Assembly (NCBI RefSeq): GCF_014697615.1
Contig: NZ_JACJSD010000042.1
Span: 1-63,811 of the forward strand
Source of the DNA: Nostoc sp. FACHB-280
Lineage (GTDB): Bacteria; Cyanobacteriota; Cyanobacteriia; Cyanobacteriales; Nostocaceae
Reading direction: 5' to 3'
Length of the DNA: 63,811 nt
Shown here one piece after another: positions 1,844 through 39,400 of this stretch. The notes beneath the pieces are model-generated. The model did no database searches. It was not told where the DNA came from and saw only the letters and a list, made by a program, of their open reading frames with translations. The translations under genes were made by a program, and so were the position numbers. Every line of letters begins with the position of its first letter. Within the stretch, counting starts at the first letter, position 1.

Positions 1844-1935
1844 TTGGCTTAAATAGTAATGCATTAAGCAACAGTTACACAAATTGGAAACATTGCCTTC
1901 TATCCTGATTGTGTAACTGTTTTTGCCACACAACA

Positions 1936-2421: not shown

Positions 2422-2664
2422 GCAGACAATAACAATCACCAGGAGAGCGATGTCTAGCGACGAGCCGTTTATACCATTTCTCTCCTGCCTTCTGCCTTAT
2501 CCTGACGATAAATATTCACGATGACCTACTTGTGTCAGTATTTGCTCAAGCAACCATCAACACTATTTCAATGCTCTAGATAGAAACTTTATTTTCATCA
2601 GCATCGCGTTTGGAAAGAGTGGCATTATTTACAGAATTACTATTATTTAATTAGGAGATATTTT

Positions 2665-2919: not shown

Positions 2920-3001
2920 GAGACAAACTTTGCTACACTAGCGATACAACTATTGAATACACTAGAAAGTTAAATTTTCTAGCATTGTATTCACGAATAC
3001 A

Positions 3002-7225: not shown

Positions 7226-7273
7226 AGATAACGGGAATTAAACATTTGTGAGGCAGAAACAAGCCTAAAAGCC

Positions 7274-7664
7274 ATCCAAGGATAGAATCTCAACCCCACA
7301 AGCTCTGGAGATATTTGAGCAATGGCAACCTTATATAGTCGTGAGTGACATTAGCTTGCCAAAGGAAGATAGCTATGCCCTGATTCAAAAAGTGAAAAGC
7401 AAAGCGAAACAGCGAGGGCAAGTGGTGTTAGGGATTGCTGTGACAGGCTACGTCCATGAAAAGATATGTGAACGGTCTTTGTCTGCTGGATTTGACCTAT
7501 GGTTTGCCAAACCCCTAGATATTGATGAATTCGTTGCTGTGCTTGTCTGTTTAGCTATTTGCCAACAGTCCTCATATGCGATCGCGCAACGGATTTTAGG
7601 TCATGTTCCTAGACATGGTGATTTAAGTCTGGAACAGCAGTTAGAACCGTCAGTTTCAAGTTAG
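7274..7664 (+). pseudogene. truncated response-regulator receiver domain
   Basis: The frame keeps the second half of a receiver: the phosphoacceptor region VVSDISLPKEDSYALI, the switch threonine in AVTGYV, and the lysine in FAKPLDIDEF. Upstream it can be followed only to about 7274 (KDRISTPQALEIFEQW), where a TAA closes it. The first beta strand and the acidic Asp pair are therefore missing. A shorter reading from the GTG at 7341 would make a 107-aa protein that could not bind the metal normally. It lies 50 nt after the hybrid kinase, so it is probably the remnant of a partner or duplicated receiver. A non-phosphorylated adaptor is possible but less likely. Confidence 0.65.
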
Positions 7665-7722
7665 CATCATCATTTTTGAAACACTATCAATTAATGTAAT
7701 TTCGTTCTGGAGATTTTGAAAA

Positions 7723-8682
7723 ATGTCGTTTACTATCGAATCTGCACGCTCTATTTTTCCTGAAACTCAAATTGCTAATGCAATTCCAGCTACGATTGAA
7801 TCATGCAACCAACTTAGTGCTGAGGATCAGTTGGCTTTACTTTGGTTTGCCTATACAGAGATGGGAGTTACAATCACTCCTGCTGCTATGGGAGCAGCCA
7901 ATATGGTCTTCGCAGAAAAAACCCTGACTCAAATCAAGCAGATGCCTGCTAGAGAGCAAACGCAAGTTATGTGCGATCTGGTTAATCATAGTGATATTCC
8001 CATTTGTCGTACATATTCATCTTTCGGTACGAATGTTAAGTTGGGCTTCTGGTATCAGTTAGGCGAGTGGATGAAACAAGGAATCGTTGCTCCCATTCCA
8101 GAAAGTTATGAACTGTCTGCACAGGCATCAGATGTCCTCCAAGCTATCCGTCAACTTGAAGGGGGTCAGCAACTCACCGTATTACAAAATATTGTCATCA
8201 ATATGGGGTATGCCCCAACAGTTAGCACCCAAAAAGTCAAAGAACCTGTGGTTCCACCTAAAGATATCGCACTCAGAGCTAAGGTCAGCATTGAGGGTAT
8301 CAACAACTTGACAGTCCTAAACTATGTGGAGAATATGAACGCCTTTGACTTCCAAGGGGCTGTAGCTTTATTTGCTGAAGATGGTGCCCTGCAACCCCCT
8401 TTTCAAGAACCGATTGTAGGTCAGGAGAACATCCTCGTCTATATGCGCGAAGAATGCTACGGACTCAAACTCATACCAGAGCAGGAGGTAGCTGAACCAA
8501 CAGAAGGAGAATTTACCCAGATTAAAGTGACAGGTAAAGTGCAAACTCCCTGGTTTGGTGACAGTGTTGGGATAAATCTAGCATGGCGGTTCTTGCTCAA
8601 TCCGCAAGGCAAAATTTTCTTTGTGGCAATTGACGTGCTGGCAACTCCCCAGGAACTACTTAACATGGGCTTTAGCCAGTAG
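7723..8682 (+). CDS. ocp: orange carotenoid protein
   Basis: A 319-residue two-domain protein collinear with OCP: an all-helical carotenoid-binding N-terminal domain (about 1-165), a linker, and an NTF2-like C-terminal domain (about 190-319). OCP binds a keto-carotenoid, is activated by blue-green light and quenches phycobilisomes. Positions matching the ketone-binding Tyr201 and Trp288 are present (TVLNYVEN and NLAWRFLLNP), as are the tunnel aromatics in LLWFAYTEMG and GFWYQLG, and the Glu244 counterpart in MREEC. The position matching Arg155, which forms the interdomain salt bridge and contributes to phycobilisome binding, is Gln here (TVLQNIVINMG). The start has a ctggag ribosome site. A terminator follows at 8801. 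No FRP gene is visible. The subfamily (OCP1, OCP2 or OCPx) cannot be settled by eye. Confidence 0.95.
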   Translation: MSFTIESARSIFPETQIANAIPATIESCNQLSAEDQLALLWFAYTEMGVTITPAAMGAANMVFAEKTLTQIKQMPAREQTQVMCDLVNHSDIPICRTYSSFGTNVKLGFWYQLGEWMKQGIVAPIPESYELSAQASDVLQAIRQLEGGQQLTVLQNIVINMGYAPTVSTQKVKEPVVPPKDIALRAKVSIEGINNLTVLNYVENMNAFDFQGAVALFAEDGALQPPFQEPIVGQENILVYMREECYGLKLIPEQEVAEPTEGEFTQIKVTGKVQTPWFGDSVGINLAWRFLLNPQGKIFFVAIDVLATPQELLNMGFSQ

Positions 8683-8800
8683 AACAGGTTTGGGGTAGGC
8701 AGTATCTGGGTGGGTCTAGAGGAGTAGAGTTGGTAAATATTCTATTAGGAAGGGGCTATTTAGGTAGCGAGCAACCCATTTGCAGCAGCATAACCCTTTG

Positions 8801-8832
8801 AACCCCTGAAACACGGGGTTTTCTTTGTTTTT
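8801..8832 (+). terminator. rho-independent terminator after ocp
   Basis: AACCCC at 8801-8806 pairs with GGGGTT at 8815-8820 around an 8-nt loop and is followed by a T-rich run (ttctttgttttt). It lies about 120 nt downstream of the ocp stop codon. The rest of the 8683-9055 gap is AT-rich and I see no gene in it. Confidence 0.7.
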
Positions 8833-9016
8833 ATCAAGCTCAATTATTAGCAATACTATTCGCTGAAGCTTGGGTGCAACATGAATTAAAGATTGATAGA
8901 CAAGACCCCATATTTAGTTGCAACACAGTTTTTGGAACTTTTACAAAGGTAAAGATGTTTTTAATTAAAAAGATAAAAATAATATCACAAGTATTTTAAT
9001 TTTGTAAATAATTTGT

Positions 9017-18702: not shown

Positions 18703-19800
18703 TTACCTATGTTTGCTTTTTTTACGCAGTGCGTGAGAAGTCCCAACACGCCCGACGTGGTGAATGTACTTTGCAGTTGTCGCCGGGGAAGCGTGGCCCA
18801 AATCTGCTTGCAAGTCAAAATCAGAAGCTCCATTTTTTTTAGCCAGCGTTGCGTGGGTGTGGCGCAGAAAGTGGGCGCTGAACTTAATTCCCGCACAAGT
18901 AGAAATTTCCTCCATCATCAGTCGCAACCCGCGATCGCTTAAAGGTTTACCCCTATCCCGCCGGCTGGGACTAGGAAACACCGGCTGATCATTGCTGGCA
19001 TTCCCACGATAATCCAGTAACACTGCACTAGTTTCCGGATCGAGACTAATGGTTCTAGTTTTATTTCGTTTCCCCGTCACAGTTAACAACAGACAATCTC
19101 CATCCTCCCGAAACTGCCGCCAAAATAACCCCGGCGTAATTACGCGCTTACCATAATCAGAAGTTTGCCGGGCAATTTCTCCCGCCCTCACCCCACTGTA
19201 AAAGATGAGAGTAAACAGCAGCCAGTGCATCTTATTAGTGTTATGTTGCAAGTCTACTTCAATTGCCGCTTTTTCCAACTTAGCAATCTCGCGTTCCGAG
19301 AGAATGCGCTCTGCGAGCTTATCGTCCCACTGGATACTTAAGTCCTTGCCCAAGTCGATAGCAAAATAACCAATAGAAGCTCTAGTACCCCACTCCCACA
19401 AACTTTTAATCGCTGCCGTGTATTTAGCCGCAGTATTTTTACTCAACCCATAAGTATTGTTCTTTCCCCGTACTGGCTTTTCATCCTTGAGCCAAGCCAG
19501 ATAAGCGTGTAGATGAAATAACGTTACCATCCTCAAATCAGATATCCCAAACCGCGACTGCATATAATCGACAAGCTCATAACCAATTTGCCGATATGCC
19601 CGTCGCGTTTGGTCGCTTTTAATAGTGACAGAATGCACCCATAGCTCAATTAGCTGCTGTGTGGAATTAATTTTCTGGCGGTTGGGAAAATAATAATCCA
19701 CAAGCGCGACACGAGCTTCATCAAGCGGTAGAGTTACCACCTCCACAGCAAGTGATTCCACGCTTTTGACAGGTAAATTTTCCATAATATAAATCCCCAA
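18703..19800 (-). CDS. tyrosine recombinase (phage/XerC-type integrase)
   Basis: A 365-residue site-specific recombinase. The N-terminal core-binding SAM-like domain (about 30-160) is followed by a catalytic domain with the first Arg in YSGVRAGEIARQ, the box II HxxR in HFLRHTHATL, a His in LGHAS and the nucleophilic Tyr in TTAKYIHH. All catalytic residues are present and the length is normal. The internal start MENLPVKS (19785) is an alternative to 19800. Such enzymes integrate or excise mobile DNA or resolve plasmid dimers. No att site could be assigned, although the TCTAGGTAA repeats lie close by. Confidence 0.9.
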   Translation of the reverse strand: MGIYIMENLPVKSVESLAVEVVTLPLDEARVALVDYYFPNRQKINSTQQLIELWVHSVTIKSDQTRRAYRQIGYELVDYMQSRFGISDLRMVTLFHLHAYLAWLKDEKPVRGKNNTYGLSKNTAAKYTAAIKSLWEWGTRASIGYFAIDLGKDLSIQWDDKLAERILSEREIAKLEKAAIEVDLQHNTNKMHWLLFTLIFYSGVRAGEIARQTSDYGKRVITPGLFWRQFREDGDCLLLTVTGKRNKTRTISLDPETSAVLLDYRGNASNDQPVFPSPSRRDRGKPLSDRGLRLMMEEISTCAGIKFSAHFLRHTHATLAKKNGASDFDLQADLGHASPATTAKYIHHVGRVGTSHALRKKSKHR

Positions 19801-21391: not shown

Positions 21392-22807
21392 ATGAAAACA
21401 GTAGAACTAATAAAAATTTTTCTAGCTTCTCCAGGCGATGTACAGACGGAAAGAAATTATGTTAAAGAAGTCGTCGCAACAATTAATCGTACTGTAGCTC
21501 AATATAAAAATGTAAGACTAGAAGTAAAATGTTCTGAAAATGCATATCCCGGATACGGTAAAGACGGTCAGGCAATTATCAACGAGCAGATAGGCAAAAT
21601 GGATGAATATGATTTATTTATCCTAATTATGAAAGACCGCTTTGGAAGTCCTACTAAGCGTCATGCATCTGGAACAGTTGAGGAGTTTACACTAGCTAGA
21701 AAAGCTCACAAGGAAAGAGGTAAGCCTGATATATGGTTTTATTCTGGCTCAATGAAGCAAGATGTAAAGAAGAAGGAAGATAAACAGCAGCAGGCGAAAG
21801 TAAAGGGATTTAGAACTAGGTATATAAATAATAGGTACGGTTTATTCAGAGACTATAAAAACCCTTCTAATTTTAAAAGTCAGTTACACGAGCAACTTAC
21901 TCTATGGTTGAATGATTATAGTAATAAAAAAACCAGAAAAAGCATTACTACTTCAAAAACTAAGACTGCTTCACTCAAGAAAAAAGAGCCTATAGATAAA
22001 ACAAAAGTAGCCAATAATTCTAATCAAGCAAGTTTAATTTCCAGTAAGCCAATAAAAGAAATAAAATCTACTACTAATAAGAATAAAACAAATACTAAAT
22101 CAAAAATTAATAATAGCAAAAGTATAAGTAATTCTGGTGCTTGGGTTTTACTTGATGACAATTTATTTGAAACTAAATCAGTTTTTCAGGATGTTAATAG
22201 AAAGCTGATTCTTAACATACCGATTATAAATTCAGAACAGGAAACTAATCTACGACACTTACAAACCAACCATCGCTACGGTAACAGGCTTGTTTCTTAT
22301 AGCTACCAAAATGATGCATTTATGGTACAAGTGGAGAGTATTGAAACTGATTCTATCAAAGGCAAAACTTCTTGTATAGTTACATTGAAACCAATACAAC
22401 AATCTAATAATTATAATATAGCTAGTTATAACAACTACAGTATAGAGCAAACTGCCGAGCTAATACGTTTTTTACTATTAAATGAAATTCAGGATAATCA
22501 AAATCAAGCCAATAATCCTATGCTGAATTATATGCTTACAGGAAGTAGCTATTCAACAAAGCTGGAAAAATTTATTTTTAGCGATATATGGAAGAAGTGG
22601 AAGAATAAGCCAAAAATGTTTTTAATCAATGCGCGACTGGCAGCAGTACATCTTTTGAAAAGCAAAAATATAGTTGAGCATATATTAAAATTTAACATCA
22701 GTCTTAATCAAAATGTTGTATCAATTGATTTTAGTGGAAAGATGCAGAATATTTACGCAAATCAAGAGCCAAAAACATTACAGGTAAAAGGTAAATGTAC
22801 TTTATAA
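21392..22807 (+). CDS. DUF4062-domain protein with long unknown C-terminal region
   Basis: The first about 120 residues are a DUF4062 domain: KIFLASPGDVQTERNYVKEV, a YPGYGKDGQAIINEQIG segment, DLFILIMKDRFGSPT and SGTVEEFTLA. DUF4062 belongs structurally near the TIR/nucleoside-deoxyribosyltransferase (STIR-like) superfamily. The Glu in GTVEEF (E97/E98) sits where those enzymes have the catalytic Glu; this is my inference. A Lys/Ser/Asn-rich linker (about 180-245) leads to a 225-residue domain I do not recognise (SGAWVLLDDNLFETKS onwards). The gene ends 23 nt from the convergent end of a TM-macro protein, forming a possible sensor-effector pair. It is very AT-rich, which suggests transfer. Confidence 0.75.
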   Translation: MKTVELIKIFLASPGDVQTERNYVKEVVATINRTVAQYKNVRLEVKCSENAYPGYGKDGQAIINEQIGKMDEYDLFILIMKDRFGSPTKRHASGTVEEFTLARKAHKERGKPDIWFYSGSMKQDVKKKEDKQQQAKVKGFRTRYINNRYGLFRDYKNPSNFKSQLHEQLTLWLNDYSNKKTRKSITTSKTKTASLKKKEPIDKTKVANNSNQASLISSKPIKEIKSTTNKNKTNTKSKINNSKSISNSGAWVLLDDNLFETKSVFQDVNRKLILNIPIINSEQETNLRHLQTNHRYGNRLVSYSYQNDAFMVQVESIETDSIKGKTSCIVTLKPIQQSNNYNIASYNNYSIEQTAELIRFLLLNEIQDNQNQANNPMLNYMLTGSSYSTKLEKFIFSDIWKKWKNKPKMFLINARLAAVHLLKSKNIVEHILKFNISLNQNVVSIDFSGKMQNIYANQEPKTLQVKGKCTL

Positions 22808-22830: not shown

Positions 22831-23736
22831 CTAAAAGCAAGCTGATTTTAAAAAGTCCTCTAACTTATATAAATCTATAGAATCTAAATCTTTGGGATAT
22901 ATCATTACTGTTAATTTTTTGGTTATAAACTTTTCTTTAGATGCTATAACGAAAGCTTCTATAATTAACTTAGCTAATGCCATCCTTGGCAAACCAGTAC
23001 GAGCCAAGTCGGAGCCGATGATTGGAATGGTTACATTTTCGCTATGACCTTTGAGGCGGATTTCTTTCCAAAGATTGTTAAGAGATTGCAGAATATATTC
23101 AGAAGAAGATTGTACAGTTATATCATTATTCATATAACCATAGGCAGTTAAAAAATAACGTTTATCGTGTGTACCAAGCGTTATAGCTGTACCAATGGGA
23201 TATCGACCAGTTTTACCTCGCTTTTTGTTAGTTTCTTCTTTACATAGATTACGTAACGGTTCAAGTGCTGTTTCAATATCCGCGTCTAGTCTTGCAATAT
23301 CATTTGCATAAACTTTGGTTAAAAACTGTCCTTGAACACTTGAAGGTTTAATTATCTCTCCTAATTCAGTATCAAAAACATCATTAGTGCCTATTACAAT
23401 ATGACCTTTATCATCAAAAATATCTCCTACTTTAACTTCAACTATTGAATCTGGAGATGATAGTTTATGGCAAAAACTTCTTCGAGGAAAGCACTTTAAG
23501 ATAGCGAAAATAAAGCAGATGATTATCAATGCAAAGTAGCCTGTCCAACCAAAATCTGGCCTTCCAGGGAAAAAGAGCGAAACAGGTTTAGTCAGTAACC
23601 CCGCCAAACCAAAAAAACTGACAAATGAACTCCAAATTCGCTTTAAGCTAACTTTGCTAAACAATTTAAAATAAATTTCAATTGCCATAATCAAGTTTAA
23701 TAAGCGGAACTTCTGTAACATTAAATTAAAACTCAA
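22831..23736 (-). CDS. two-TM macro-domain protein resembling type II Thoeris ThsA (DUF6430)
   Basis: The N-terminal region has two hydrophobic helices (FVSFFGLAGLLTKPVSLFF and YFALIIICFIFAIL). After them comes a macro-like domain of about 190 residues: VKVGDIFDDKGHIVIGTND, GRYPIGTAITLG, RYFLTAYGYMNND and VTIPIIGSDLARTGLP. In type II Thoeris, ThsA has this architecture: the macro domain senses an ADP-ribose-type signal made by a TIR protein and the membrane helices kill the cell. A later start (MAIEIYFKLF, 23688) is possible. No classical TIR gene is next to it; the convergent neighbour is the DUF4062 protein. The family match is by motif reading only. Confidence 0.7.
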   Translation of the reverse strand: MSFNLMLQKFRLLNLIMAIEIYFKLFSKVSLKRIWSSFVSFFGLAGLLTKPVSLFFPGRPDFGWTGYFALIIICFIFAILKCFPRRSFCHKLSSPDSIVEVKVGDIFDDKGHIVIGTNDVFDTELGEIIKPSSVQGQFLTKVYANDIARLDADIETALEPLRNLCKEETNKKRGKTGRYPIGTAITLGTHDKRYFLTAYGYMNNDITVQSSSEYILQSLNNLWKEIRLKGHSENVTIPIIGSDLARTGLPRMALAKLIIEAFVIASKEKFITKKLTVMIYPKDLDSIDLYKLEDFLKSACF

Positions 23737-23880: not shown

Positions 23881-25005
23881 TTAACTGATATGGAGGTTTT
23901 GCCAATTTTGGTGCTTAATTTGAGAAGTGGTATTGGATTCTAGATGTTCTCTAACTTGCATTCCCACAGCATATGCAAGCAATGGGGGTACCGAATTTCC
24001 GATTTCTCTTTGGGCGTGGAGTATTGCCTCACTGAAATTAAACCAATCAGGATAACTGTGCAAACGAGCAGCTTCTCTAACTGAGATAACCCGTGGTTGT
24101 TCTGGATGGAGGGGACGCAATGCAGTGCGGTTGCCACTCCCCGCTCTTAACGTCACGCAGAATCCATCCCATTGCAGCTTCTTTGATTTGGATTTAGCTT
24201 CCCTTGCACCTGGGGGAGTATTGATGAATTGCTGAATTACTTCTGGTGTATGTGTTGTCGCTGCGAATCCCGTCTCAATGTTAGTTACTATACCAAGATT
24301 TGGGAATATTTTTTCAAGATACTTAGCATATTCTCCCTTCACCCAATCTGGATGCCATTCTTGAGTGTTTTGCTTGGGGAGTAGGGGGACTGGCAACAAG
24401 TCCGCGATCGCATCTCTAACTGTATGTTGAGGTTGATGCTGCGGCGGTATAATTTCTCCAAACTTAGATGCAACAAAAAACACCCTTTTTCTAGCTTGCG
24501 GAACTCCGTAATCTGAAGCGTTCAGGTTTCATTTTGAGAGAAAATAATGTTCTTCTAGCACTGCTTGAAGGTTAGCAGTAATGCAGCCAAACTTCTGATT
24601 TTTAATGCCTGGCACATTCTCCATGATTGCAGCTAGGGGATTGAGTTCCAACACCAGCCGTACAAACTCCCCTACCAACGAGTTTCTCTCATCCTCAACA
24701 TTTTGCAGTCCAGCAACGCTAAATCCTTGGCATGGTGGGCCACCAAAAACGGTATGAATTTCCCCGTCCCAATCTGCATACTTCGCCTGAATACAGGCAC
24801 GTATTTCTTGCGCCGTCACCTCCCGAATGTCTTTGCACAAGACTGTGGCGTGCGGGAAATTATGTTGGTATGTTGTTAGGACGATGGGATTATTATCAAT
24901 GGCGATCGCTATTTCAAATCCTGCTGCTTCAAATCCCAAATCTAATCCACCCACCCCGGAGAATAGGCTAATAGCTATTTTTTTGTTTGTTGCTGTTGAG
25001 TTCAT
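23881..25005 (-). pseudogene. C5-cytosine DNA methyltransferase with an in-frame TGA stop
   Basis: The product, 374 residues if read through, has all core motifs. Motif I is LFSGVGGLDLGFEAAGF, the catalytic motif IV is GGPPCQGFSVAG, motif VI is MENVPG, motif VIII is ASDYGVPQARKR, and motifs IX-X are REAARLHSYPDWF and REIGNSVPPLLA. A TGA at 24529-24531 interrupts it between LSK and NLNASDYG. The two parts are in the same frame, so this is a single nonsense codon and not a frameshift. The 158-residue N-terminal part alone lacks motif VIII onwards, so the gene is probably inactive unless the stop is read through. No matching restriction gene is adjacent. Confidence 0.85.
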
Positions 25006-28188: not shown

Positions 28189-28380
28189 CTACACTGCCTG
28201 ACTGATTGCATCTAACAAAAACAAACCCAAGTCTTTATGCAGTGCTTCATTATGCTGCGGACAACCAGTTGAATGTAGACACCTTGGACAACCTGCTTCA
28301 CAATCACATTCAGCTGCCAGCGCATATGCTTTAGCAGCGAAATTAGTCAAATCATTAAATTCCCGGTACTCGACGTAGTA
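28189..28380 (-). pseudogene. C-terminal remnant of a DUF1998-type helicase (zinc-binding tail)
   Basis: Directly after, and slightly overlapping, the drmC stop, a second minus-strand frame encodes about 60 residues ending in a TAG. They contain AAECDCEAGCPRCLHSTGCP, then QHNEALHKDLGLFLLDAI. This is the cysteine tail of YprA/MrfA-type DUF1998 helicases (CxCxxGCPxCxxSxxCPxxNxxLxK). There is no start or helicase body in frame, so it is a broken relic, or possibly a re-used tail. It is distinct from the DUF1998 end of DrmB. Confidence 0.65.
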
Positions 28381-29179
28381 TATTCTTTGCCACTAAAGTT
28401 TCAAACTGCGATCGCATTCCTTTAGCAGCTACAGGGTCATCAATTAGTACACCAGCTTCAATATTGCGTTCGTGGGCGGCTTCAGTAAAGTTGGCTGAAG
28501 TTACAAGCAGGCGTTCTTCATCTACAACAACACATTTCGCATGAAGACAGGCTTTTGTACCTGCACCTGGGGCGAGGGAACGGGGGTCATAAAACACTTC
28601 TGGTAAGCGTTGTCCCGTCCAGATTTCTTGACGGAATGTGTCTGCAAACTCTTTCAAAAGCGTTGACTCTGGTAATTTATTGTTGTGCGATGGGCGAAGC
28701 CCCACCGTAGGTGTTCGCTTCACGTTAAGGAACATCCTGACATTTAGTTCTAGATTCGCATCCATCCGGGAAGCCAGCACACCAAACAGAGCTTGTGCTT
28801 TTTTCCCTTTGTCAACAGCAAAACTGGAAATAAGGATGCTACTTTTGGCTGTGCTGAATAACTCGCGCACAACAACGCTAGTATCGCGGCTTTGAGAACC
28901 GACGACTTCCTGTCCTGTCCAAACCAACTCTACTCTGTCGTGTACTTCCTGAGATGCTGACCGTTCTGCTGCTAGTAGACGCAATGTGTAAGCTATGTGA
29001 CCGGGAGTAGCACCCATTGCGTTAAGTCGATTGAGTTCCTCAACAACACTGCTACTGAGAATTTCTGGGACGTAGGTTTTAATAGTTGATATGCTAAAGG
29101 GTGGATGAAGCCTTCCTGTTTCAAAGGCTGTAGCCAAACTGAGCAAAACTGGTCGGCTCAGTTGGAGAAACGCTGTCAT
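28355..29179 (-). CDS. drmC: DISARM protein DrmC (phospholipase D-like)
   Basis: A 274-residue PLD-family protein, the last gene of the DISARM operon. The C-terminal HKD-type motif HAKCVVVDEERLLVTSAN is at about 216-235, followed by HERNIEAGVL. The N-terminal half contains VRELFSTAKSSILISSF, as in the PLD fold, but only one clear HxK motif is seen, so activity needs a dimer or is degenerate. DrmC is reported to be dispensable for DISARM in some hosts. The start overlaps the drmB stop (29176-29179). A palindromic cyanobacterial repeat appears to be inserted in frame near residues 150-165 (VKRTPTVGLRPSHNNK). Confidence 0.85.
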   Translation of the reverse strand: MTAFLQLSRPVLLSLATAFETGRLHPPFSISTIKTYVPEILSSSVVEELNRLNAMGATPGHIAYTLRLLAAERSASQEVHDRVELVWTGQEVVGSQSRDTSVVVRELFSTAKSSILISSFAVDKGKKAQALFGVLASRMDANLELNVRMFLNVKRTPTVGLRPSHNNKLPESTLLKEFADTFRQEIWTGQRLPEVFYDPRSLAPGAGTKACLHAKCVVVDEERLLVTSANFTEAAHERNIEAGVLIDDPVAAKGMRSQFETLVAKNILRRVPGI

Positions 29180-31035
29180 GACAATTCCTGATTGAGAAAA
29201 AACTCAGCACCCAAACCCTCAACTGTAGCTACGACAAGCGCCCGGTCAAGAAATTCGTTACCACGTTCGCAGGAAGATTCAGCAATTAATAAACATCCAT
29301 GACAGGCTGCACCATGCAAAAAACGCTCCTCTTGTACGTTGTCTGGCTGGTGTTGGGCGCAAACAGGGTCATTAGAACATAGCCTTCCTAATTCTAGGGC
29401 GGTAGTTAGATGGTACTCAATTCGCTTGCCAATTTGTACCAGACCTCCCAAAGTTCCCTCCGACCCAGGGGAACCAGTATATAAAAGAATTCCATAGCCA
29501 GTGTCACCAACATAAATGCGTTCACGAATTGATGAAGCAGCATAACCGCATTCTAGAGATACTGCTGTAATCAATAGGTGTGATAAGGAGTGCAGCATAA
29601 TATAAGGTAGTCCAGGAAATTTAGCTTCTGGGAGTGCCTTGCGCTTCTGCCACACCTCGAAGCCCCTCAACAATTCCAGCCCACGTTTTTGCACCGCAGG
29701 CTGCTTTACCCAGTTTTCGATTGCCTGTTTTTGAAAGCTGATAAATACACCCTCACCACGGTTTTCGATGGCAGGAACCCAGCTTGGTTCGATATCAAGG
29801 GCAGCCCGCCGCACATCCAGTGCCAGTTCGCCATCAATATCAGGCATTGCAGGTTCAAAGCGGGTGAACCCGACTTGGGCAATGACCTCTCGTAAACGAT
29901 GTACTAGAATAATCCGGTCAATACGAGAGGATAATAACGGGGGCAAAGCAGTTAACTTGCGGGCGCGGGCATAAAAGTCACCATCTGGGGCATCTTCTCC
30001 CATCTCTTCTGGGCTGGAAAGCAAGGTTTCAATTTCTACTTGCTTAATACTTTTACTTTGGTCTCCTTGTCCACTTTGCTTGCGCCGTATTTCTGCCCAT
30101 ACAGCTTCATCGCTAAATCCTTCCAAGGCGTTAGCAACTTTTTGTTTACGGCGTTCTCTTTTGACATCATCTGAGCTTTCTGCATACTGAAGAAAGTCTT
30201 CATAGACTAAATTAACTGCTGCTCGCAGGGCTTCATCTGAGTCTGGGAGAGAGATAACACTCAAAACTTGAGAAAAGTAAGTATTACTTGCAGCTCTTAC
30301 TAGCAGTCGGTTGTACTCTGGTTTACCAGTGACGCGGGAAACACAAGGTTCAAAAGCTTTTGGCCCTAGCCAAGGACGATGCCCCAGACATTGACCCAAA
30401 ATTTTGCCATTGGGTACTGTGGCATCAGAGAGGGGACGACGAGCGCCGCAGGCTTCACAGCGAACGAAGATATCTACGAAATCGTTGCCAGAACCACGTT
30501 CGTCAAGCCAAAGTTGACCCCGGCATTTACTGGAAACATCGCTATTACTGTGGACAAAGCGATACCAGTCGATATCACTGATGTGTCCGTTAACACAGGC
30601 TTGGACAAAGCGAACGGGGACAACTGGGATTTTCTTTTTGGTATCGCTGAGGTATTTACCTTTAACTAGACTACCCCAAGGAATCAGAGGACGAGTACGG
30701 TACTCTTTGGCGTTAGGAGAAGTCCAAGTTTCTTCTACTTGAGCGACAAACCAAGTGGGGAAGGTAAAAGCTGAAATCCCACTTCTGGCGGCGGCTGGGT
30801 CTTGCTCGTCTGTAGGTGGCGCATACATAGCAATGTCTCTGACACCCAAAATCTCGGCAACCCTGGCTGCAAGGCGGTCTTCGTAAATTCGTCGTCTATT
30901 ACCCCGCCAGTGGTTGAGTCCGCCGATGATGACTGAGTAATTTGGTAAGTCCACCATTGCGCCGGGGCCAAAGGTGGAGATAATTTGGCTTTGCCGTATT
31001 TCTCCTGAAGGCTTGCGTTTGCTTTTTGACTTCAT
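29176..31035 (-). CDS. drmB: DISARM protein DrmB (DUF1998)
   Basis: A 619-residue protein with the DrmB start IRQSQIISTFGPGAMVDLPN and a C-terminal DUF1998 region (HSLSHLLITAVSLECGY, DTGYGILLYTGSPGSEGTLG) ending in cysteines (CSNDPVCAQHQ, GAACHGCLLIAESSC). Central cysteine pairs (RCEACGARRP) suggest zinc binding. DrmB forms a complex with the DrmA helicase that recognises phage DNA. Its start overlaps the drmA stop by 4 nt and its stop overlaps the drmC start, so the three genes are translationally coupled. The length is normal for the family. Confidence 0.92.
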   Translation of the reverse strand: MKSKSKRKPSGEIRQSQIISTFGPGAMVDLPNYSVIIGGLNHWRGNRRRIYEDRLAARVAEILGVRDIAMYAPPTDEQDPAAARSGISAFTFPTWFVAQVEETWTSPNAKEYRTRPLIPWGSLVKGKYLSDTKKKIPVVPVRFVQACVNGHISDIDWYRFVHSNSDVSSKCRGQLWLDERGSGNDFVDIFVRCEACGARRPLSDATVPNGKILGQCLGHRPWLGPKAFEPCVSRVTGKPEYNRLLVRAASNTYFSQVLSVISLPDSDEALRAAVNLVYEDFLQYAESSDDVKRERRKQKVANALEGFSDEAVWAEIRRKQSGQGDQSKSIKQVEIETLLSSPEEMGEDAPDGDFYARARKLTALPPLLSSRIDRIILVHRLREVIAQVGFTRFEPAMPDIDGELALDVRRAALDIEPSWVPAIENRGEGVFISFQKQAIENWVKQPAVQKRGLELLRGFEVWQKRKALPEAKFPGLPYIMLHSLSHLLITAVSLECGYAASSIRERIYVGDTGYGILLYTGSPGSEGTLGGLVQIGKRIEYHLTTALELGRLCSNDPVCAQHQPDNVQEERFLHGAACHGCLLIAESSCERGNEFLDRALVVATVEGLGAEFFLNQELS

Positions 31036-34000
31036 TTTTCGTCCTCCTCAACCTCAAAACCATCAGGGTTGCAAACCCACAAGTTGACTGTTGGTTCTAC
31101 ATCTCGGAGGCTGCGTTGTGCTTTGAACTTGCGTGCTTCCATTGGTTGCTTTTCAAGTTCTGGGTCAAGGGGGTCAAATAATAACGGTGGTGCTTGACCT
31201 ACTTCTTGTTGGTATTGCAAGCTGATTTTTTGACTAGCAATGCGTTCCCAAGTGTCTAGTAAATCTTTCACCCGTCCGCGAACTTTTTGACGTAGTGCTT
31301 CGGCTTCTACGGCATCAAGTTCTTTATCGTGCATTTCTGCGCGATCGCTAATGGCATCGACCACATATTCTAAATCCTGCCGATGTTGTAAAATCTCGAT
31401 AGCGCGGGGTGGTGCAGTCATACCAGGATGTCCTAAACGCGCCAAGGCAACGGAAATAGCAGCAATACCCCTGTCAATGGCGCGAGGTGAAAATGGAGTG
31501 ACGCTAGTTGCTTCTACAGAACGATAAAAGCTGGTATGCCAAGCTGGAAAGCGTTCGTAGTGAGAGCGATCGCGTGGTCGATGTATATTTAATAATGTAA
31601 TCACCAAACCAGGGCGATTTTCATCCCGTCCCACCCGGCTGGTAGATTGAATATACTCGGATGCTGTTTTTGGTTGACCCAACACGACCATCAACCCTAA
31701 ACGGGTGATATCCAAGCCCACGGATATCATATTTGTTGCTAAGGCTACATCGATATGTTTCTTCTCGTGAAATGGTAGTGCCAAGCAGCTTTTGATTTCA
31801 GCAACAACATTAGTGCTGACACGGGAAGTTAATTCCGCCGGTTCATAGGCAATTTGACGGTCAGCAAATAAACCTTCAGTTTCGTTGACTCGTTTTCTCA
31901 GGCTATACCTTGCTAGACGAGAGTTGACTTCATCTTCAACGATGCGGCGACTACCACCTAATTCTCGCAGGGAGTTAAAATATCCCAGCAGGGTCATGTA
32001 AGGATCTGCGGGGTTATCTGGATTTTTTGCTCCTCCTGCTGCTTGATAATGTTTCTGTGCAGCACCCAGTAGTGCTAAGTAAGTTCGTAACAGTACCACT
32101 TTTAAGCTTCGTCCCTGGGCTGCAATGCCTACATAGGTACGGGCATTACTGACACTTGCTGGTACTGTTTTGGCGAAAAACGAATCGCGGCGATCTGGAC
32201 CGGGAGGTGGGAAAATATCTACAGCATCTCGACCAAATAAGGCTCGAATTTGTTTACTAGCTCTCCGTACTGTTGCGGTAGAGGCGATAATTTTAGGGCG
32301 TAATTTTTTACCGTTAATTCTTCGGCTGCTCAGTTCGTCAATGGCAGTTTCATACAACCCTACCATTGTTCCCAAGGGGCCGGAAATTAGGTGCAACTCG
32401 TCTTGAATAATCAAGTCTGGGGCTGGTAAATGACCTGCAAGTGCTTGACCGCGACCGGGATGGGCAGGCCCGTAAAAACCATCTTTGTCATAACGGTCTA
32501 CCAGTCCGAATAATGCTCCAGTTTCTCCTACCCAAGGGAGATTGGCGAATTTATCGACAGTGGCGATAATAAAGCTGGGTAATCGTTGGTAAATTGGTTC
32601 ATCTACTGCAACGATGGGCAACGATTGATTGCGGGTAAATTTGCATTTGCGGTTGATACAAGTAATTTGCAGTGACTTTGGCTGGTCTGCATCTGGTAGT
32701 AATTGAAAGGAATCAGAGGTAAACCGTTTACCGCACCAAGGACAGTTTTCTAAAGGGATGGGTGAAGGTTTGCGGGTGTCATTTTGAAAGGCAATAGTAC
32801 GGGCGCGGGCGGTGTATTCATCGTTGTCGCCTTTTTTTCCCATACGGTTGGGAGTAGCGGTTTGTCCCACCCACAGTCCAATTTCAAAAGGCCAGGGACC
32901 TAATTTTTGTGTATCTTTTTGTCTTTCTAACTCTAAGGCGCAGACAAGAGTAGCAGCACGACTTAATTGGTCAAGGGTAAGCAGGCGCAGGGTATAACGC
33001 ATCAAAACACTTACGCCAGCTGAGTTTATTGTGGGGTTTCGCAGGCGGCGCAATACCATTGCGAATGCTGCTAATCCTAAGTAAGCTTCGGTTTTACCAC
33101 CGCCTGTGGGGAAGAACAGCAAATCTACTAATTCTCGGTCAGGGTGTTCGGGATGGGCAATACCAACCAAGTTCATTAATAAAAACGCCAGCTGAAAAGG
33201 TCGCCATGCCGGAGGTCTGACAGATTCTGGGGTAGTATCTGTATTGTGGGTAAGACGCTGACGGATAGCAATGGCGATCGCGCGATTGGCAATTTGAAAT
33301 GCTTCTAATACATTAGGATCGTCTAGGGCTTGCAATCCGGCGGCGATGCGTTTGTTTGCCCTGCTTGCCCGGTTGAGTAAATCGTTAGCAACTTCCAGTC
33401 GTTCTGGTTCACTGGGAAGATTGAGCTTTTGTGCTTCAATCCACAGCCCATAAGCATCAACTATCCCAGACATCATATTTCGCAGAGTTTCCACCGTGGG
33501 TGCGGCGGCTAGTGCTTCCATCCCCAGTTCCACGCCTGCAACTTGCTCAGGTACTACCTTTTCTACATCAGCAATGGGCATCCAAGCAGTGCGGACTTCT
33601 TGACAAGTAGTGTCATCGTTGGTGACAGCGACAGCTGAAACGTTATGTCCCACCGCATACTCATAATCATCTCGATACTGTAAATCTGCTACCTTCTCAT
33701 CCCAATCATCACCGTGTCGTCCGCGCAGGTTGGGACGAGGAACGAGAGAATAAGGGGTGCGGATGATGAGGCAAGTTTGGAAGGCGAAAGCAATATCGCT
33801 GTAGGGGTTGGCTACTGGCGGGCGATAGTTCACCAGGAACACGGACACGGAACGAGTACCAACAGGAACTAACTCTGCCGCAGTTACGGGACGCACTGAG
33901 GTAACGAGTCTCAAACCGTTACTACCAGGAATTTCCCAATGTTTGGGTACATTACTGACATGGAGAGGAACTGTTAATTCTGCTTGTCCGGGGGTTCTTT

Positions 34001-34427
34001 GCCACAGCCGGGGTAACTGGAGTTGGCTTTTAGAGTCTTCCTGATTTTCTTCATCCTCTTCATCAACTGGACAGTAATCGCCCCAGTGAACAGTAACATT
34101 TATTTCCTTAGCGGTTGCTGGTACAAGGATGCTTAAACCCATTGATGAGGGGAAAAATGCTCTCCGGGCGGAGGCACTGTCGGGTTGCTTTTCATCATCG
34201 CCAGCGTTCACCTCAGAAATCTCGTCTATGTCATCGTTACCTATATCTTCTGAACGCTGTTCTACCGAAGCTTCATAAGGCACTAAAAAACCCGTGAGAT
34301 ACCACTTAGATGGAGCTTGGTCGATAATTTCGTCAACGTGGGCGATATCATTGGGCGTAGGCCCCACTAAGTCAAGTTGTAGGGCATCAATGAGAGATGA
34401 ACGCACTTCGGCAGGAGTATTGGGCAT
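31032..34427 (-). CDS. drmA: DISARM helicase DrmA
   Basis: An 1131-residue SF2 helicase. Walker A is FPTGGGKTEAYLG (near 440), the DExH box is IIQDELHLISGPLG (near 675), motif III is STATVRRASKQIRALFG, and the C-terminal motif VI is QSTSRVGRDENRPG (near 930). A zinc site CPWCGKRF/CINRKCKF lies between the first motifs. DrmA translocates on DNA within the DrmAB complex, using ATP, to sense unmodified or incoming phage DNA. A TTGACA box at 34506-34511 on the minus strand may serve an internal promoter in the 119-nt gap upstream, because the inserted DUF4435 gene separates it from drmMI. Confidence 0.93.
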   Translation of the reverse strand: MPNTPAEVRSSLIDALQLDLVGPTPNDIAHVDEIIDQAPSKWYLTGFLVPYEASVEQRSEDIGNDDIDEISEVNAGDDEKQPDSASARRAFFPSSMGLSILVPATAKEINVTVHWGDYCPVDEEDEENQEDSKSQLQLPRLWQRTPGQAELTVPLHVSNVPKHWEIPGSNGLRLVTSVRPVTAAELVPVGTRSVSVFLVNYRPPVANPYSDIAFAFQTCLIIRTPYSLVPRPNLRGRHGDDWDEKVADLQYRDDYEYAVGHNVSAVAVTNDDTTCQEVRTAWMPIADVEKVVPEQVAGVELGMEALAAAPTVETLRNMMSGIVDAYGLWIEAQKLNLPSEPERLEVANDLLNRASRANKRIAAGLQALDDPNVLEAFQIANRAIAIAIRQRLTHNTDTTPESVRPPAWRPFQLAFLLMNLVGIAHPEHPDRELVDLLFFPTGGGKTEAYLGLAAFAMVLRRLRNPTINSAGVSVLMRYTLRLLTLDQLSRAATLVCALELERQKDTQKLGPWPFEIGLWVGQTATPNRMGKKGDNDEYTARARTIAFQNDTRKPSPIPLENCPWCGKRFTSDSFQLLPDADQPKSLQITCINRKCKFTRNQSLPIVAVDEPIYQRLPSFIIATVDKFANLPWVGETGALFGLVDRYDKDGFYGPAHPGRGQALAGHLPAPDLIIQDELHLISGPLGTMVGLYETAIDELSSRRINGKKLRPKIIASTATVRRASKQIRALFGRDAVDIFPPPGPDRRDSFFAKTVPASVSNARTYVGIAAQGRSLKVVLLRTYLALLGAAQKHYQAAGGAKNPDNPADPYMTLLGYFNSLRELGGSRRIVEDEVNSRLARYSLRKRVNETEGLFADRQIAYEPAELTSRVSTNVVAEIKSCLALPFHEKKHIDVALATNMISVGLDITRLGLMVVLGQPKTASEYIQSTSRVGRDENRPGLVITLLNIHRPRDRSHYERFPAWHTSFYRSVEATSVTPFSPRAIDRGIAAISVALARLGHPGMTAPPRAIEILQHRQDLEYVVDAISDRAEMHDKELDAVEAEALRQKVRGRVKDLLDTWERIASQKISLQYQQEVGQAPPLLFDPLDPELEKQPMEARKFKAQRSLRDVEPTVNLWVCNPDGFEVEEDEK

Positions 34428-34546: not shown

Positions 34547-35413
34547 CTATTGAAGAGGGTTAATTCTGTTTTGTAACTCAATTAAATCTGGGTACTGATT
34601 AACATCAAGTTGATTCAGCACCCAATCAAAAAAAGTTTTCAAAGAAATATACCGGGAATCTCTTTGCTGCATAGCTTTTTGAATATCCTTACCATGAAAC
34701 CAGATCAAGTACTGCTTCTGTGTCCAAAATTCCTCTTGGGCAAATTGCTGCTGATATTCAGCAAGACTTTGTTTAAATCTGTCTGGCGTTACTGTTCCTA
34801 CAGCTTGTTGAAACTGGTTAATTAATGCTTCAGCTTCAGTTTGACAGTCTTGGAGAGTTAGCGAGGGCGGGAGTTCACCACTACCACCTGTCCATGTTGT
34901 TTTTAATTGATGCCGACTTGCACTTGATTGCAACAAGTCGGCTAATGCCCATCTTACTGCTTGATAATCTTGCAAGCTTCTTGCAGCTTCTTCAATCCAA
35001 GTTGCGATCGCCTCAATTCCTGGTGAATCTCCATGTCCCCATTTGGAAGTGGGATTTTCTTGTTTTTCTAGATATTTTGTGTGCCAATAATCGTGAATTA
35101 AATCGGCATTTATTAAATAATTCTCCACACAAGCACGATGGGTAAGCAACATGGATTGGAATGGGATTAATCCGATGTTGGTAGTAGGTTGAGCGTCAAA
35201 ATCGCGATCGCGAAAAATGATAGCTTGTTGATTTGTCGTTCCCTCTCTAGAAAAGTAACCCTGAACAAAACTTGAAAAGGTAAATTTACTGCCAGAGGGA
35301 ACAATTGTGGGCTTATTTGTTCCAAGGTTCTCGACAACTCTGTTAAGTAGTCTAAAATCTAAACTAGTTTGCTTGCCCTCACAGAAAATAATTTTGCCAC
35401 TAACGACACTCAC
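34547..35413 (-). CDS. DUF4435/Toprim-like protein inserted in DISARM
   Basis: A 288-residue protein with a Toprim-like pattern: IIFCEGKQTSLDFRLLNRVV supplies the acidic Glu, and AIIFRDRDFDAQP supplies the DxD. The LLTHRACVENYLINADLI block is typical of DUF4435 proteins, which are encoded with ABC-type ATPases. It follows the ATPase gene by 2 nt on the same strand. Together they resemble a split OLD/Gabija-like ATPase plus nuclease. The rest is helical. The nuclease role is inference from the Toprim-like residues. This pair is not part of the canonical class 1 DISARM gene set. Confidence 0.75.
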   Translation of the reverse strand: MSVVSGKIIFCEGKQTSLDFRLLNRVVENLGTNKPTIVPSGSKFTFSSFVQGYFSREGTTNQQAIIFRDRDFDAQPTTNIGLIPFQSMLLTHRACVENYLINADLIHDYWHTKYLEKQENPTSKWGHGDSPGIEAIATWIEEAARSLQDYQAVRWALADLLQSSASRHQLKTTWTGGSGELPPSLTLQDCQTEAEALINQFQQAVGTVTPDRFKQSLAEYQQQFAQEEFWTQKQYLIWFHGKDIQKAMQQRDSRYISLKTFFDWVLNQLDVNQYPDLIELQNRINPLQ

Positions 35414-35415
35414 AA

Positions 35416-36474
35416 CTACACCTCTAGCCGGATAATATATGCTTCAGGCACTAATTGCTCTATATAATCAGAGTGGGTTGTAATAATAAACTGATTATTT
35501 GTGCCTAATTTGGGTAAAGCTCTCAGCAATGCCTGTTGCATTGGTGGATGAAGGTGCAATTCAATTTCATCAATTAGAATGACGGAGTTGTGAATATTCC
35601 AACTAGCAAAGTCCATTAACATTGGGAAAATAGCTCGTTCACCGCCGGACATCTCAGAAATTTCATACTGGTTTTTACCGTCGTATAAATAAAACCAGGG
35701 TTCACTTAAGATATCGTCTACATTCTCTCGCAGAACTGGGCCTTCAAAACTGCGTTCTGGAAAGACTGCTTTGTAAGCGCGTTCAATTTCGGCGTATAAA
35801 TCCTTTTGTCCTGGGCGTAGATTGGGGATTTTAGGTGTTCCTACATCTTGATGGAATTGTCGCCATTTAGAAAGGCGATCGCGCAACAGGTCTTCTGTAA
35901 TTTCTAGTTTGCGATCTGGGTCTTCTGTAGTCAGGCTAGTTGATGTTCTCTGTTCTGTGTACCAAAAAATTGTACCCACTCGCTCAAATGCTGAAAATCC
36001 TTCAGCACGGAGTAGTTGTTTAGCGTATTCTCGTCCTTTAAATTGAAATAATTCCGCAGCACTATCTGCTTGAACACGCCCGTTTCGCCATTTAAGGTTA
36101 ACAATATGCTTTTCCGCAGGAGGCTGCAAATCACGACCCATTTCTCGTAACTTCTGTTGAAAATACCGCACAGCTTCGAGTTCACTAGATGAGAACTGCA
36201 CCTGTACAGTCACCTCCGGCTCAAATGCTCCCCAATTACTCCCAAGCAGTTCATAGTTAAATCCTGCCCATTCTAAATCGGCAGGTTCTTTTAAGCGTCC
36301 GGTTGCTGTGCCGAGAGTTGCGGCGATCGCTTGTAAAAGACTTGTTTTTCCAGCACCGTTCATGCCGATGAGAACAATAATATCTCGTGCCAACCCAGTT
36401 TCTGGATCTGTGAAATCAAATGTAGAAGACCGGAATTTTTTAAAGTAATTTAGCTGTAGGGATTGAATTTTCAT
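35416..36474 (-). CDS. ABC/SMC-like AAA ATPase inserted in DISARM
   Basis: A 352-residue ABC-type ATPase of the OLD/RecF-like class. Walker A is GMNGAGKTSLLQ (near 38), the signature is EMSGGERAIFPM (near 278), Walker B is VILIDEIELHLHP (near 298) and the switch His is in IITTHSDYIEQL (near 332). The start codon overlaps the drmMI stop (ATGA, 36471-36474). It is therefore translationally coupled to DISARM, and the DUF4435 gene follows after 2 nt. All catalytic motifs are intact. The protein lacks the long SMC coiled coil, and the middle region is about 190 residues long. Confidence 0.88.
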   Translation of the reverse strand: MKIQSLQLNYFKKFRSSTFDFTDPETGLARDIIVLIGMNGAGKTSLLQAIAATLGTATGRLKEPADLEWAGFNYELLGSNWGAFEPEVTVQVQFSSSELEAVRYFQQKLREMGRDLQPPAEKHIVNLKWRNGRVQADSAAELFQFKGREYAKQLLRAEGFSAFERVGTIFWYTEQRTSTSLTTEDPDRKLEITEDLLRDRLSKWRQFHQDVGTPKIPNLRPGQKDLYAEIERAYKAVFPERSFEGPVLRENVDDILSEPWFYLYDGKNQYEISEMSGGERAIFPMLMDFASWNIHNSVILIDEIELHLHPPMQQALLRALPKLGTNNQFIITTHSDYIEQLVPEAYIIRLEV

Positions 36475-39400
36475 AAGCTAGTCTCCACATCAAATCCCGG
36501 TATTATTGGTGTAGTTTCCCCAATCTTTTTAGATTTGGTTTTGGTTGTTTTTTTCTTAGTAGCTTTAGCCTTGGGTTTCTTTTGTGCTGCTTTACCGCCA
36601 AGAATTTCGGCTTGCGATCGTTTTTGGTTAAGGTCGAGTAGGCGTGCTAAAACTTCATCATGCACTTCTTCTGTCCAACGGTAACGCCAAGGTTTTTTGC
36701 GTTGTCGTCCGTTGCTGGTTTCTTCTTCGTCTTCCTCATCGTCGTAGTCTAGCAGGAAGGTGCAGTCGGTGGGGATGTCACTCCAGCCGTAAGCTTCGAG
36801 GACGGCTTTATCCATTGCGGCGTGCAGTGAGCGTAATTTTAGGATATCAGGGTCGCGTTCTTCTGGGTCGTGGAAGCGGTTGTAGGTGTCGGTTAGTCCC
36901 TGGTTGTTGCGAACCATTAACGCGGCGCGGTATTCGTAGTATTCTTTACCTACGGTTTCTAGGGTGGGGTTGGTTTCCCAATTTTCGGGGAAGGGGAATG
37001 TTTCAAAGCAGTCAGATGGGGTATATACAGGGTCATCCTTCATAGTTGATCCTAAGAATAATGCCCACATTTCATGTATACGAGAATGCATTACACAAAA
37101 AGAGGCAAAATCATCAATAGAAAATATTACTATTTTGTGACTAAAAATTATATTTGAAGGTAAAAATGTAAAACTTCTGTATTTACTAGTTTGACAACAG
37201 ACTATCACCTGATTCAGTTCTGTAATAGCTCTAAATAAAGCAGGTGTAGTTTCACCAAAACGCCACCAATAACGTGCGCGTGTTTCACGATTTTGTTTTA
37301 ATCTTGCTGGCTTAACTTTAGCTTCTACAATCTCCATTAAATCAGTATATTGCCGTGCCTCATCTTCGCTCATCTCCCCAAAATTGATAACATAACGGCG
37401 ATGTGCATGAGTTGGACTGCTATTTACTTCTTCACCACCAATATAAGGAAAAATTCTCTCAGCATTTTTTGTATCTTTCTCAATCAAGCGGTGCATTTCT
37501 GCAATGGGTGTTGCTTTTTCATCAGAGTCATCAAAAACAAAACCCTGACCATATATCTTACTACCTAAAAAACTTTTATTGGCATTAGCTAATAATACCA
37601 CCGGATTTTCATTTCCACCAGCATGGAACATAAACGCAGAAATTAGAGAAACTTCTCGATTATCTAATAGCTTTTTGCCTTGATAATTACCTTTAAAAAT
37701 ATTAATTACACTCACAACAACCGCAGCTTGTCCTGCCCATTTTAAACGTTTTTGAGCATGATAAATAGTACCTGAATTTTGACAAATCCATCTTAAACCA
37801 GTGGTACGAGTATCACCTTGAGCAATAGTATTTGTTGCGATTAATCCAAAAGTTCCACCTTGACGTAACAAATCAAATGCTCGACGGAAAAAATAAGCCA
37901 CTAAATCACCATTTCCATGCGATTCAGGATATTGTTCTAAAATCCATGCAAGGTATTCATCTCCAAAATTTGAAGAAATTCTGCTTCCACCCAAAAACGG
38001 TGGATTCCCAATAATTGCATCAAACCCTGGATTTTCTCTATCAAAAACCTCTGGAAACTCAATATCCCAGTTAAATGGAATAATCCCCTTATCTCCACTC
38101 CGCAACCTATTAGCAATTTCCTCCAAACTCTCAGTATCAGCTTGGTGATATCGCCACCTTCTCACCAATTCGGCAATTTCAGTTTCCCTTTCCTCTCGCT
38201 GCTTCTTATTACTTCTTTCAAAAAACGCCGCAATTCTCACATCACCCGTTAACCGCGCTTGGTACAATTCTTGTTCTACTTTGCAGAGATAATCCCGCTT
38301 TTGGTCATCATCAGCATCACTGCGGGTATCCAACGCCTGAATTTCCGCCCGATAAGAACGCGCACGGTCAAGTTGCTCTTTTAAATATGCCAATAGTGGT
38401 AAATCGTAAGTAGCATCCTTCCCAAAAGACCCAATCTGCTCTTTCCTCAACCCTACCAGCGAATCCCCACACTTGAGGGCATGGTCAAGAAATGTAAACG
38501 GTAAATCCTTCGCCAGCGTCACCAACCATAAAGATAACTTCGCCAAATTCACCGCAAACGGGTTTTTATCCACACCATATAAACACCGTTGCGCCACCAA
38601 GCGACGCGCAATTAATAAAGGTTCTTCTTTACCATAATTGCTAATTGTCGCATTCTCGTTGCGATCGCTTTGGTGGGCGGAGCGATCGCTAATTCCCATT
38701 TCCTGGCGGGTATCGTTTTCCTCGCGTTCCCACGCTTCCACCACCTTCTCAGCCAATTGACGACAAGTTTCTACCAAAAACGCACCAGAACCCATCGCCA
38801 AATCACAAACTTTCAAAGATAAAATTTGTTCCGCAGTCGGTTTTTCTCCCAACGCTTCCAACACCGGACGCAGGGTTGTTTCCACAATTGGTTTAGTCAG
38901 TGACCTGGGCGTATAATGCGAACCAGAACGCCTGCGTTCTTCCCCTGGCTGCAAGTACAGCGAACCCACAGTCAATAAATTTGGCGTTTGCCGCGATACC
39001 TTCCGACCTAGTGCGATCGCTATATCTTCCAATGACTGCGCTGCTTTCAGTTCCTTTAGGGCATTACCTGACACCTCGCAATTTGCCAATTCCTTCAGTA
39101 ACTTTTGGCGATCGCCCGATTTCGCTGCCAAAATCGCTGCTACATCAACTACAACCGTTGTAGAAACCTTTGAACCCTTGGGTTTACTGTAAACTCCAAT
39201 ACTGGGACTTTCTGCCCTTTCCACAGCAAAACCCATAATGCCCTCATACACCGAGCCAATTTGCTCCACATCTAGGGATCTATAAGATAGCCGCTCCCCT
39301 TCTAAAATTAGTAATTTTTCTAACAACCGATAAATCACCCCATCGGGGATTCGCGGAGGCTCGATTGCTTGACCCGCCACCCCTTCGGGGTTCGCCAGTC

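Follow-up and report, generated by a model that had tools for sequence, protein, structure and literature searches.

A DUF4062 protein beside a ThsA-type membrane macro protein in Nostoc: a putative Thoeris-like immune module

Which enzyme could signal to a ThsA-like membrane macro protein that has no TIR-domain ThsB next to it? The window, by which we mean the whole stretch of 63,811 nucleotides from Nostoc sp. FACHB-280 analyzed here, raises this question with a TM-macro gene that faces a gene for a DUF4062 protein. Comparison of sequences and loci makes it reasonably probable that the two act together as an immune module resembling Thoeris, with DUF4062 in place of the ThsB TIR protein as the putative signal maker. 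The features concerned, and the DISARM genes in the same window, are the following:

21392-22807, plus strand: DUF4062 protein of 471 aa, proposed to act both as sensor and as signal-making NADase (Pfam PF13271; macro neighbour in 25 distinct loci)
21392-21943, plus strand: putative TIR-like DUF4062 domain, aa 1-184, with candidate catalytic Glu98 (AlphaFold model; KpSwz profile match; Glu98 invariant)
21944-22111, plus strand: Lys/Ser/Thr-rich low-complexity linker, about aa 185-240 (pLDDT below 50 at 181-240; poor conservation in the window-type alignment)
22112-22804, plus strand: C-terminal domain, about aa 241-471, with a proposed role in sensing or activation (no Pfam match; fused elsewhere to TIR and to a nucleotidyltransferase)
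22831-23736, minus strand: ThsA-like TM-macro protein (Pfam PF20016; PADLOC ThsA; hydropathy; ortholog starts)
28355-29179: drmC (DISARM)
29176-31035: drmB (DISARM)
31032-34427: drmA (DISARM)
36471-40562: drmMI (DISARM)
42507-45749: drmD (DISARM)

Both frames of the pair lie where an earlier note on this DNA had placed them, in convergent orientation and with 23 nt between their stops. Their dN/dS values of 0.16-0.34 over seven pairwise comparisons (four of the DUF4062 gene, three of the macro gene) look like purifying selection on both. An NCBIfam search returned no family for either protein, and a PHROGs search gave weak matches only (E 0.1 and 0.15 for the window sequences, 0.017 for the Calothrix NIES-4101 plasmid locus L005). 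Elsewhere in the window, a weak AriB-like gene (34547-35413) and a PtuA/AriA-like AAA ATPase gene (35416-36474) lie between drmA and drmMI, and a C5 cytosine methyltransferase gene at 23881-25005 on the minus strand is split into two frames of 200 and 158 aa where a near relative (L074) has a single frame of 389 aa. A tyrosine recombinase/integrase gene (18703-19800) stands 1.6 kb from the DUF4062 gene on the other strand, and two plasmids have a gene of this kind immediately upstream of their DUF4062 gene (L002, 4818-5906; L003, 4992-5984).

The macro protein matches Pfam ThsA_Macro (PF20016) at 193 bits (cut-off 25; 4.6e-57), PADLOC ThsA at 240 bits (9.4e-72) and the solved ThsA chains 8v6q, 8v6s, 8r66 and 9uuz at 3.5e-19 to 5.7e-25, while two hydrophobic stretches ahead of the macro domain reach best 19-residue Kyte-Doolittle means of 2.3 and 1.6. 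Pfam, PADLOC and hydropathy agree on the ThsA-type architecture, two N-terminal helices and a macro domain, that had been read from the letters alone. Annotated orthologs begin at the position of the ATG at 23688, which is therefore the probable start (285 aa), rather than the TTG at 23736. A study of Thoeris reports ADP-ribose and IAD as ligands of TM-macro ThsA, which oligomerizes, and the macro domain of E. coli ThsA binds ADP-ribose (PMC11204291). Aligned with the solved proteins, the window macro retains equivalents of EcThsA D83, N96, D100 and S217 and carries the changes N114Q, S175G, G218D and T220A, so the ligand cleft that had been proposed as a check is kept at several key residues but replaced at these four contacts.

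A classical TIR partner had been said to be missing, and this held over the whole window contig (C51), which has no match to TIR_2, TIR, ThsB_TIR or CAP12-TIR. With these four families unmatched, we rejected the idea that a TIR partner lies farther off on this contig. The window's own genome has TIR_2 matches on three other contigs (C95, C58, C55), so a distant TIR partner is conceivable there, and a search of 25 genomes for TIR_2 gave matches in 21, the window's own included. Two drafts, Anabaena sp. 4-3 (L084) and a Chloroflexi MAG (L085), hold the pair with no match to TIR_2, ThsB_TIR, TIR or CAP12-TIR, the four TIR families searched.

A study of DUF4062 domains describes them as NADases of a TIR-like type and Swarozyc as a system against phage, and reports that the DUF4062 protein KpSwz depletes NAD+ and yields ADP-ribose (PMC13174449). 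The same study describes KpSwz and TEP1, the two shown to be active, as NAD(P)+ hydrolases, and reports DUF4062 proteins from 26 bacterial phyla and from eukaryotes, with NPHP3, NWD1/2 and the vault protein TEP1 as examples; it also places some of the genes in operons together with defence genes or with various enzymes (PMC13174449).

The window protein matches Pfam PF13271 at 28 bits (cut-off 24.7). Its DUF4062 domain was modelled by AlphaFold with a mean pLDDT of 86 and a pTM of 0.84, giving five strands alternating with helices, with Glu98 near the beginning of the helix at 94-109. The order of strands and helices fits a TIR-like five-stranded fold; Foldseek matches to this model are generic flavodoxin-like, the 50 listed containing no TIR and, as number 48, a single nucleoside deoxyribosyltransferase, and they lend no support to a specific TIR claim. 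HHalign against small, shallow TIR alignments likewise gave no signal (probability 3.7 and 0.4). The positive evidence for a TIR-like NADase comes from sequence: a broad DUF4062-domain profile (A4) matches the KpSwz chain in the PDB (10wc, 11cq, 11cv) at E 0.0013, while a profile of the full-length window type (A2) found no PDB match up to E 1, KpSwz included. The STIR-like fold that had been suggested thus gains from the KpSwz match and from the five-stranded alpha/beta model, but Foldseek singled out no TIR.

In the profile alignment Glu98 falls on an alanine at position 84 of the KpSwz chain. The solved construct runs from residue 15 to the C-terminus with E97A (PMC13174449); on a numbering that makes residue 14 the first of the chain, this alanine would be residue 97, the mutated catalytic Glu. 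The earlier note had named E97 and E98. Both are invariant in 13 of 13 window-type proteins aligned, but across 19 more diverse DUF4062 domains only E98 is (19/19).

To assess whether such pairs recur, we surveyed 388 genomes of the window's class, in which ThsA_Macro occurs at 19 places in 18 genomes and DUF4062 at 51 places in 45. A DUF4062 neighbour was found at nine of the 19 macro places, eight of them by Pfam within about 2.5 kb and the ninth (L031), whose DUF4062 domain is incomplete, by a self-built profile; wherever Pfam matched both families in one genome, as it did in eight, the two genes form an adjacent pair. The other ten macro places comprise four with a ThsB-type neighbour, one with a CAP12-type TIR, four where neither TIR nor DUF4062 was seen and one unclassified fragment (L043). 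The ThsB-type neighbours were assigned by Pfam (L026, L036), by annotation as TIR (L037, one record met twice, also as L007) and by likeness to L026 (L027), and the CAP12-type TIR beside the macro gene of L041 by Pfam. Our self-built TIR profiles missed this CAP12-type TIR, and the ThsB profile was made from the genes that it reports, so that both count as weak evidence; the Pfam scan covered some, not all, neighbour proteins of macro genes. Distant TM-macro proteins at L038, L039, L040 and L042 have no recognized TIR or DUF4062 partner, and the macro genes of L040 and L042 adjoin proteins of 426-440 aa without a Pfam match.

Scanning genome contigs with a macro alignment gave 24 loci, 20 of them with a DUF4062 neighbour (seven on contigs already counted, to judge by their lengths and coordinates), two with ThsB (L094, L097) and two with no partner seen, where the macro gene is at the contig edge (L091) or short (L092). 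On three plasmids, each with an adjoining macro gene, a match spans 80% or more of the DUF4062 protein; 82 plasmid records matched the macro protein, and the neighbourhoods of five were opened. Around a macro relative (42% identity) on a Priestia plasmid lie three annotated TIR genes, two of them above the Pfam TIR_2 cut-off. Viral contigs yielded one distant macro protein, ThsA_Macro by Pfam, and no DUF4062 relative.

Altogether the DUF4062 gene is next to, or one gene from, a ThsA_Macro gene in 25 distinct loci, the window included, which bears out the recurrence that had been proposed as a check. One of these is in a Chloroflexi MAG and two are from Streptomyces, where (L095; L096, 6915-8022) an extra gene lies between macro and DUF4062, DUF6414 in L096 and one that looks alike in L095. 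The two genes are convergent in 11 loci, where they are therefore not one operon, on the same strand in 13 and divergent in one, and five loci hold two DUF4062 genes (L004, L035, L081, L086, L087). Some partners fall below the Pfam cut-off of 24.7 bits (first gene of L084, 21.1; L081, 21.1; L082, 23.4; L096, 18.0) and were called by a self-built profile at E 3.2e-13 or better; PADLOC PDC-S60 also matches those of L084 (86 bits) and L096 (75 bits). Damage affects one gene or both in four or more of the 25 pairs: besides L031, described above, the L030 pair shows signs of it in each gene (an in-frame stop breaks the DUF4062 match, and the open frame upstream of the macro has no usual start codon), the L079 macro is missing its N-terminus, and L087 has an interruption in one of its two DUF4062 genes. 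In the last case (6175-9013) the interrupted gene, which has the window-type C-terminal domain, holds an inserted frame of 436 aa.

How does the macro protein vary with its partner? Our macro tree has 39 rows (25 paired with DUF4062, eight with TIR, six with no partner seen), leaves out the fragment L043 and was built by a quick method with SH-aLRT and no bootstrap. One clade of 25 rows (SH-aLRT 96) consists of 23 DUF4062-paired rows together with L091 and L092; the Streptomyces rows fall outside it, on a tree that carries a long-branch warning. Among the DUF4062-paired rows, the D83 and D100 equivalents are retained wherever covered (24 and 25 rows) and that of N96 in 23 of 25, with Thr in both Streptomyces rows. 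The N114 position is Gln in 25/25, and also in six of eight TIR-paired rows, so this change is not tied to DUF4062. The T220 position is Ala in 24/25 (Ser in L029) and that of G218 is Asp, Asn, Glu or Thr in 24/25; the ThsB-paired L094 has the same changes at 218 and 220.

Of the cleft positions compared, 175 tracks the partner best. It is Gly in all 25 DUF4062-paired rows; this distal-ribose contact is Ser or Ala in two solved ThsA proteins and in the six of six ThsB- or TIR_2-paired rows that cover it. Over the eight TIR-paired rows the count is four Ser, two Ala, one Gly (L041, where the alignment is ambiguous) and one absent (L097), and Gly also occurs in L040 and L042, which are related to L041 and have no partner seen. 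Shared ancestry accounts for much of this pattern, and a change of ligand behind it is a possibility that the alignment raises.

The C-terminal domain of the window DUF4062 protein has no Pfam match, and the same type is present in 16 of the 25 paired loci. Among the 388 genomes it was matched five times, in four DUF4062 proteins adjoining a macro gene and in one cyanobacterial protein (G040; L103, 3959-6275) where it is fused to an NTase-conflict domain (2.1e-51), with an 8xMP membrane protein as upstream neighbour; this fusion and the 8xMP gene are a possible further signalling pair. On the Calothrix NIES-4101 plasmid the domain is fused to a canonical TIR (TIR_2, 9.8e-17) with more TIR genes alongside. 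The run of TIR genes there (L005, 4317-10681), one with the window-type C-terminal domain, has no macro gene in the stretch fetched. TIR and DUF4062 therefore alternate in two roles, as macro neighbour and as head of the C-terminal domain, and the earlier suggestion that DUF4062 replaces TIR beside a ThsA-like macro is supported so far as anatomy, recurrence and substitution go.

The nine other paired loci carry different C-terminal parts on DUF4062, among them a type of 527-546 aa (L029, L032, L034, L082), a long type of 791-813 aa (L030; L033, with a HEAT match just below cut-off), a 293-aa type in the Streptomyces loci and a protein carrying DUF4384 with a TPR-CHAT gene next to it (L081). 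In this Tychonema locus (492-5752) the macro gene adjoins a run of three genes, for the DUF4062-DUF4384 protein, the TPR-CHAT protein and a second DUF4062 protein, which might represent a protease branch. Phage records gave no match to the C-terminal domain, and its profile gave no KpSwz match up to E 1, a comparison of sequence and not of fold. Foldseek with the full DUF4062 protein (mean pLDDT 70) against PDB and viral models returned weak, scattered matches, with TIR structures not ranked high among those in the PDB; those to phage tail-tube, baseplate and Hcp-like proteins were poor, with the matched part of the model unclear, and we do not claim a tail-tube fold.

From the observed gene pairing, domain identities, catalytic-residue match, partial cleft conservation and exchange of DUF4062 and TIR as partner and as head, we infer a DUF4062-made signal, its chemistry and an anti-phage effect. 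In the mechanism that we propose, the C-terminal domain would detect infection and bring DUF4062 domains together. The assembled domains, by an activity known for a relative, would cleave NAD+ via Glu98 to ADP-ribose or an ADP-ribose adduct, and this nucleotide would enter the macro cleft of the membrane protein, as ligands of its relatives do. Following the literature model, ligand-bound macros would then oligomerize, cluster their two-helix membrane parts and damage the membrane, so that the phage would be stopped together with the cell.

The DUF4062 protein may instead be an executioner of the Swarozyc kind, stopping phage itself by NAD+ depletion, with the membrane macro as an added arm opened by the by-product ADP-ribose. 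Conservation of Glu98, the KpSwz reaction (PMC13174449) and the binding of ADP-ribose by the E. coli ThsA macro (PMC11204291) all suit such a scheme, which we nevertheless regard as unlikely: pairing is near obligatory in the macro clade (23 of 25 rows, the other two being cut or short) and several DUF4062 architectures accompany one effector family, both of which fit dependence on the effector better, and the distal-ribose contact is unlike that of the ADP-ribose-binding ThsA in every DUF4062-paired row. Macro domains in other systems can bind or hydrolyse ADP-ribose derivatives. The macro protein might then remove or sequester the DUF4062 product and protect the cell, in a toxin-antitoxin-like arrangement for which the close pairing in several gene orders can be cited; a ThsA-type macro with two N-terminal hydrophobic stretches, relatives partnered with TIR proteins and the published suggestion that ThsA macro domains are unable to process ADP-ribose derivatives (PMC11204291) make this very unlikely.

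Two unrelated defence genes might also merely have come together, the window being a defence island with DISARM genes and the genes being convergent in 11 of 25 loci. Such chance proximity would have to produce 25 distinct loci in three orientations, on differing replicons and with differing flanks, and a pairing confined to one macro clade and a Streptomyces branch. With the 51 DUF4062 places scattered at random over the 388 genomes, each of about 6 Mb, we estimate well under 0.01 DUF4062 neighbours among 19 macro places, an expectation that clustering in islands would raise, against nine seen, and we consider coincidence very improbable.

The Thoeris-like reading, with DUF4062 as signal maker, opens onto a wider proposal that we offer tentatively and judge somewhat unlikely to hold in full. 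DUF4062 would be a second, TIR-independent maker of ADP-ribose-type messengers, with a messenger unlike those of TIR-Thoeris (Gly occupies the distal-ribose contact in 25/25 DUF4062-paired macros, as against Ser or Ala in the two solved ThsA and in the six ThsB- or TIR_2-paired rows that cover it), and the C-terminal domain would be a portable sensor on DUF4062, TIR and nucleotidyltransferase heads, each driving its own membrane effector. Among openly accessible titles and abstracts on DUF4062 with Thoeris, phage or a macro domain, none describes the pair. A recurrent partnership of DUF4062 with a nucleotide-gated effector suggests that some DUF4062 proteins make a signal, and provides a two-gene system for direct testing; it may exemplify the rewiring of a Thoeris effector to a new enzyme, alongside the reuse of an undescribed C-terminal domain on three enzyme types.

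Among known systems, the TM-macro Thoeris of E. coli CFT073 and B. amyloliquefaciens Y2 shares with the window pair a PF20016 effector with two N-terminal hydrophobic stretches and several cleft residues, an adjacent gene for a putative NAD+-cleaving partner and, at some loci, two partner genes per effector, Thoeris having one or multiple ThsB genes (PMC11204291). It differs in that the window-type partner is DUF4062 and not TIR/ThsB, four cleft contacts are changed and the genes are often convergent; because an adjacent TIR-domain ThsB is missing, we call the pair Thoeris-like and not Thoeris. Swarozyc KpSwz (10wc, 11cq, 11cv) has in common with the window protein the DUF4062 domain, the catalytic Glu and an auxiliary C-terminal region after the N-terminal domain, and DUF4062 genes are reported in defence islands (PMC13174449). 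KpSwz is described there as its own executioner, triggered by the phage portal (PMC13174449), whereas the window type has a recurrent membrane partner, and the window C-terminal domain, compared by sequence and not by fold, has no match to KpSwz with its HTH/winged, portal-binding auxiliary domain. The recurrent effector partner and the lack of sequence likeness in the C-terminal domain are our reasons for calling the window protein a DUF4062 enzyme and not a Swarozyc. The NTase-conflict and 8xMP pair of G040 repeats the plan of an enzyme with a membrane protein and has the same C-terminal domain, with another enzyme class and another membrane protein. The module may work like Thoeris, with the enzyme of Swarozyc.
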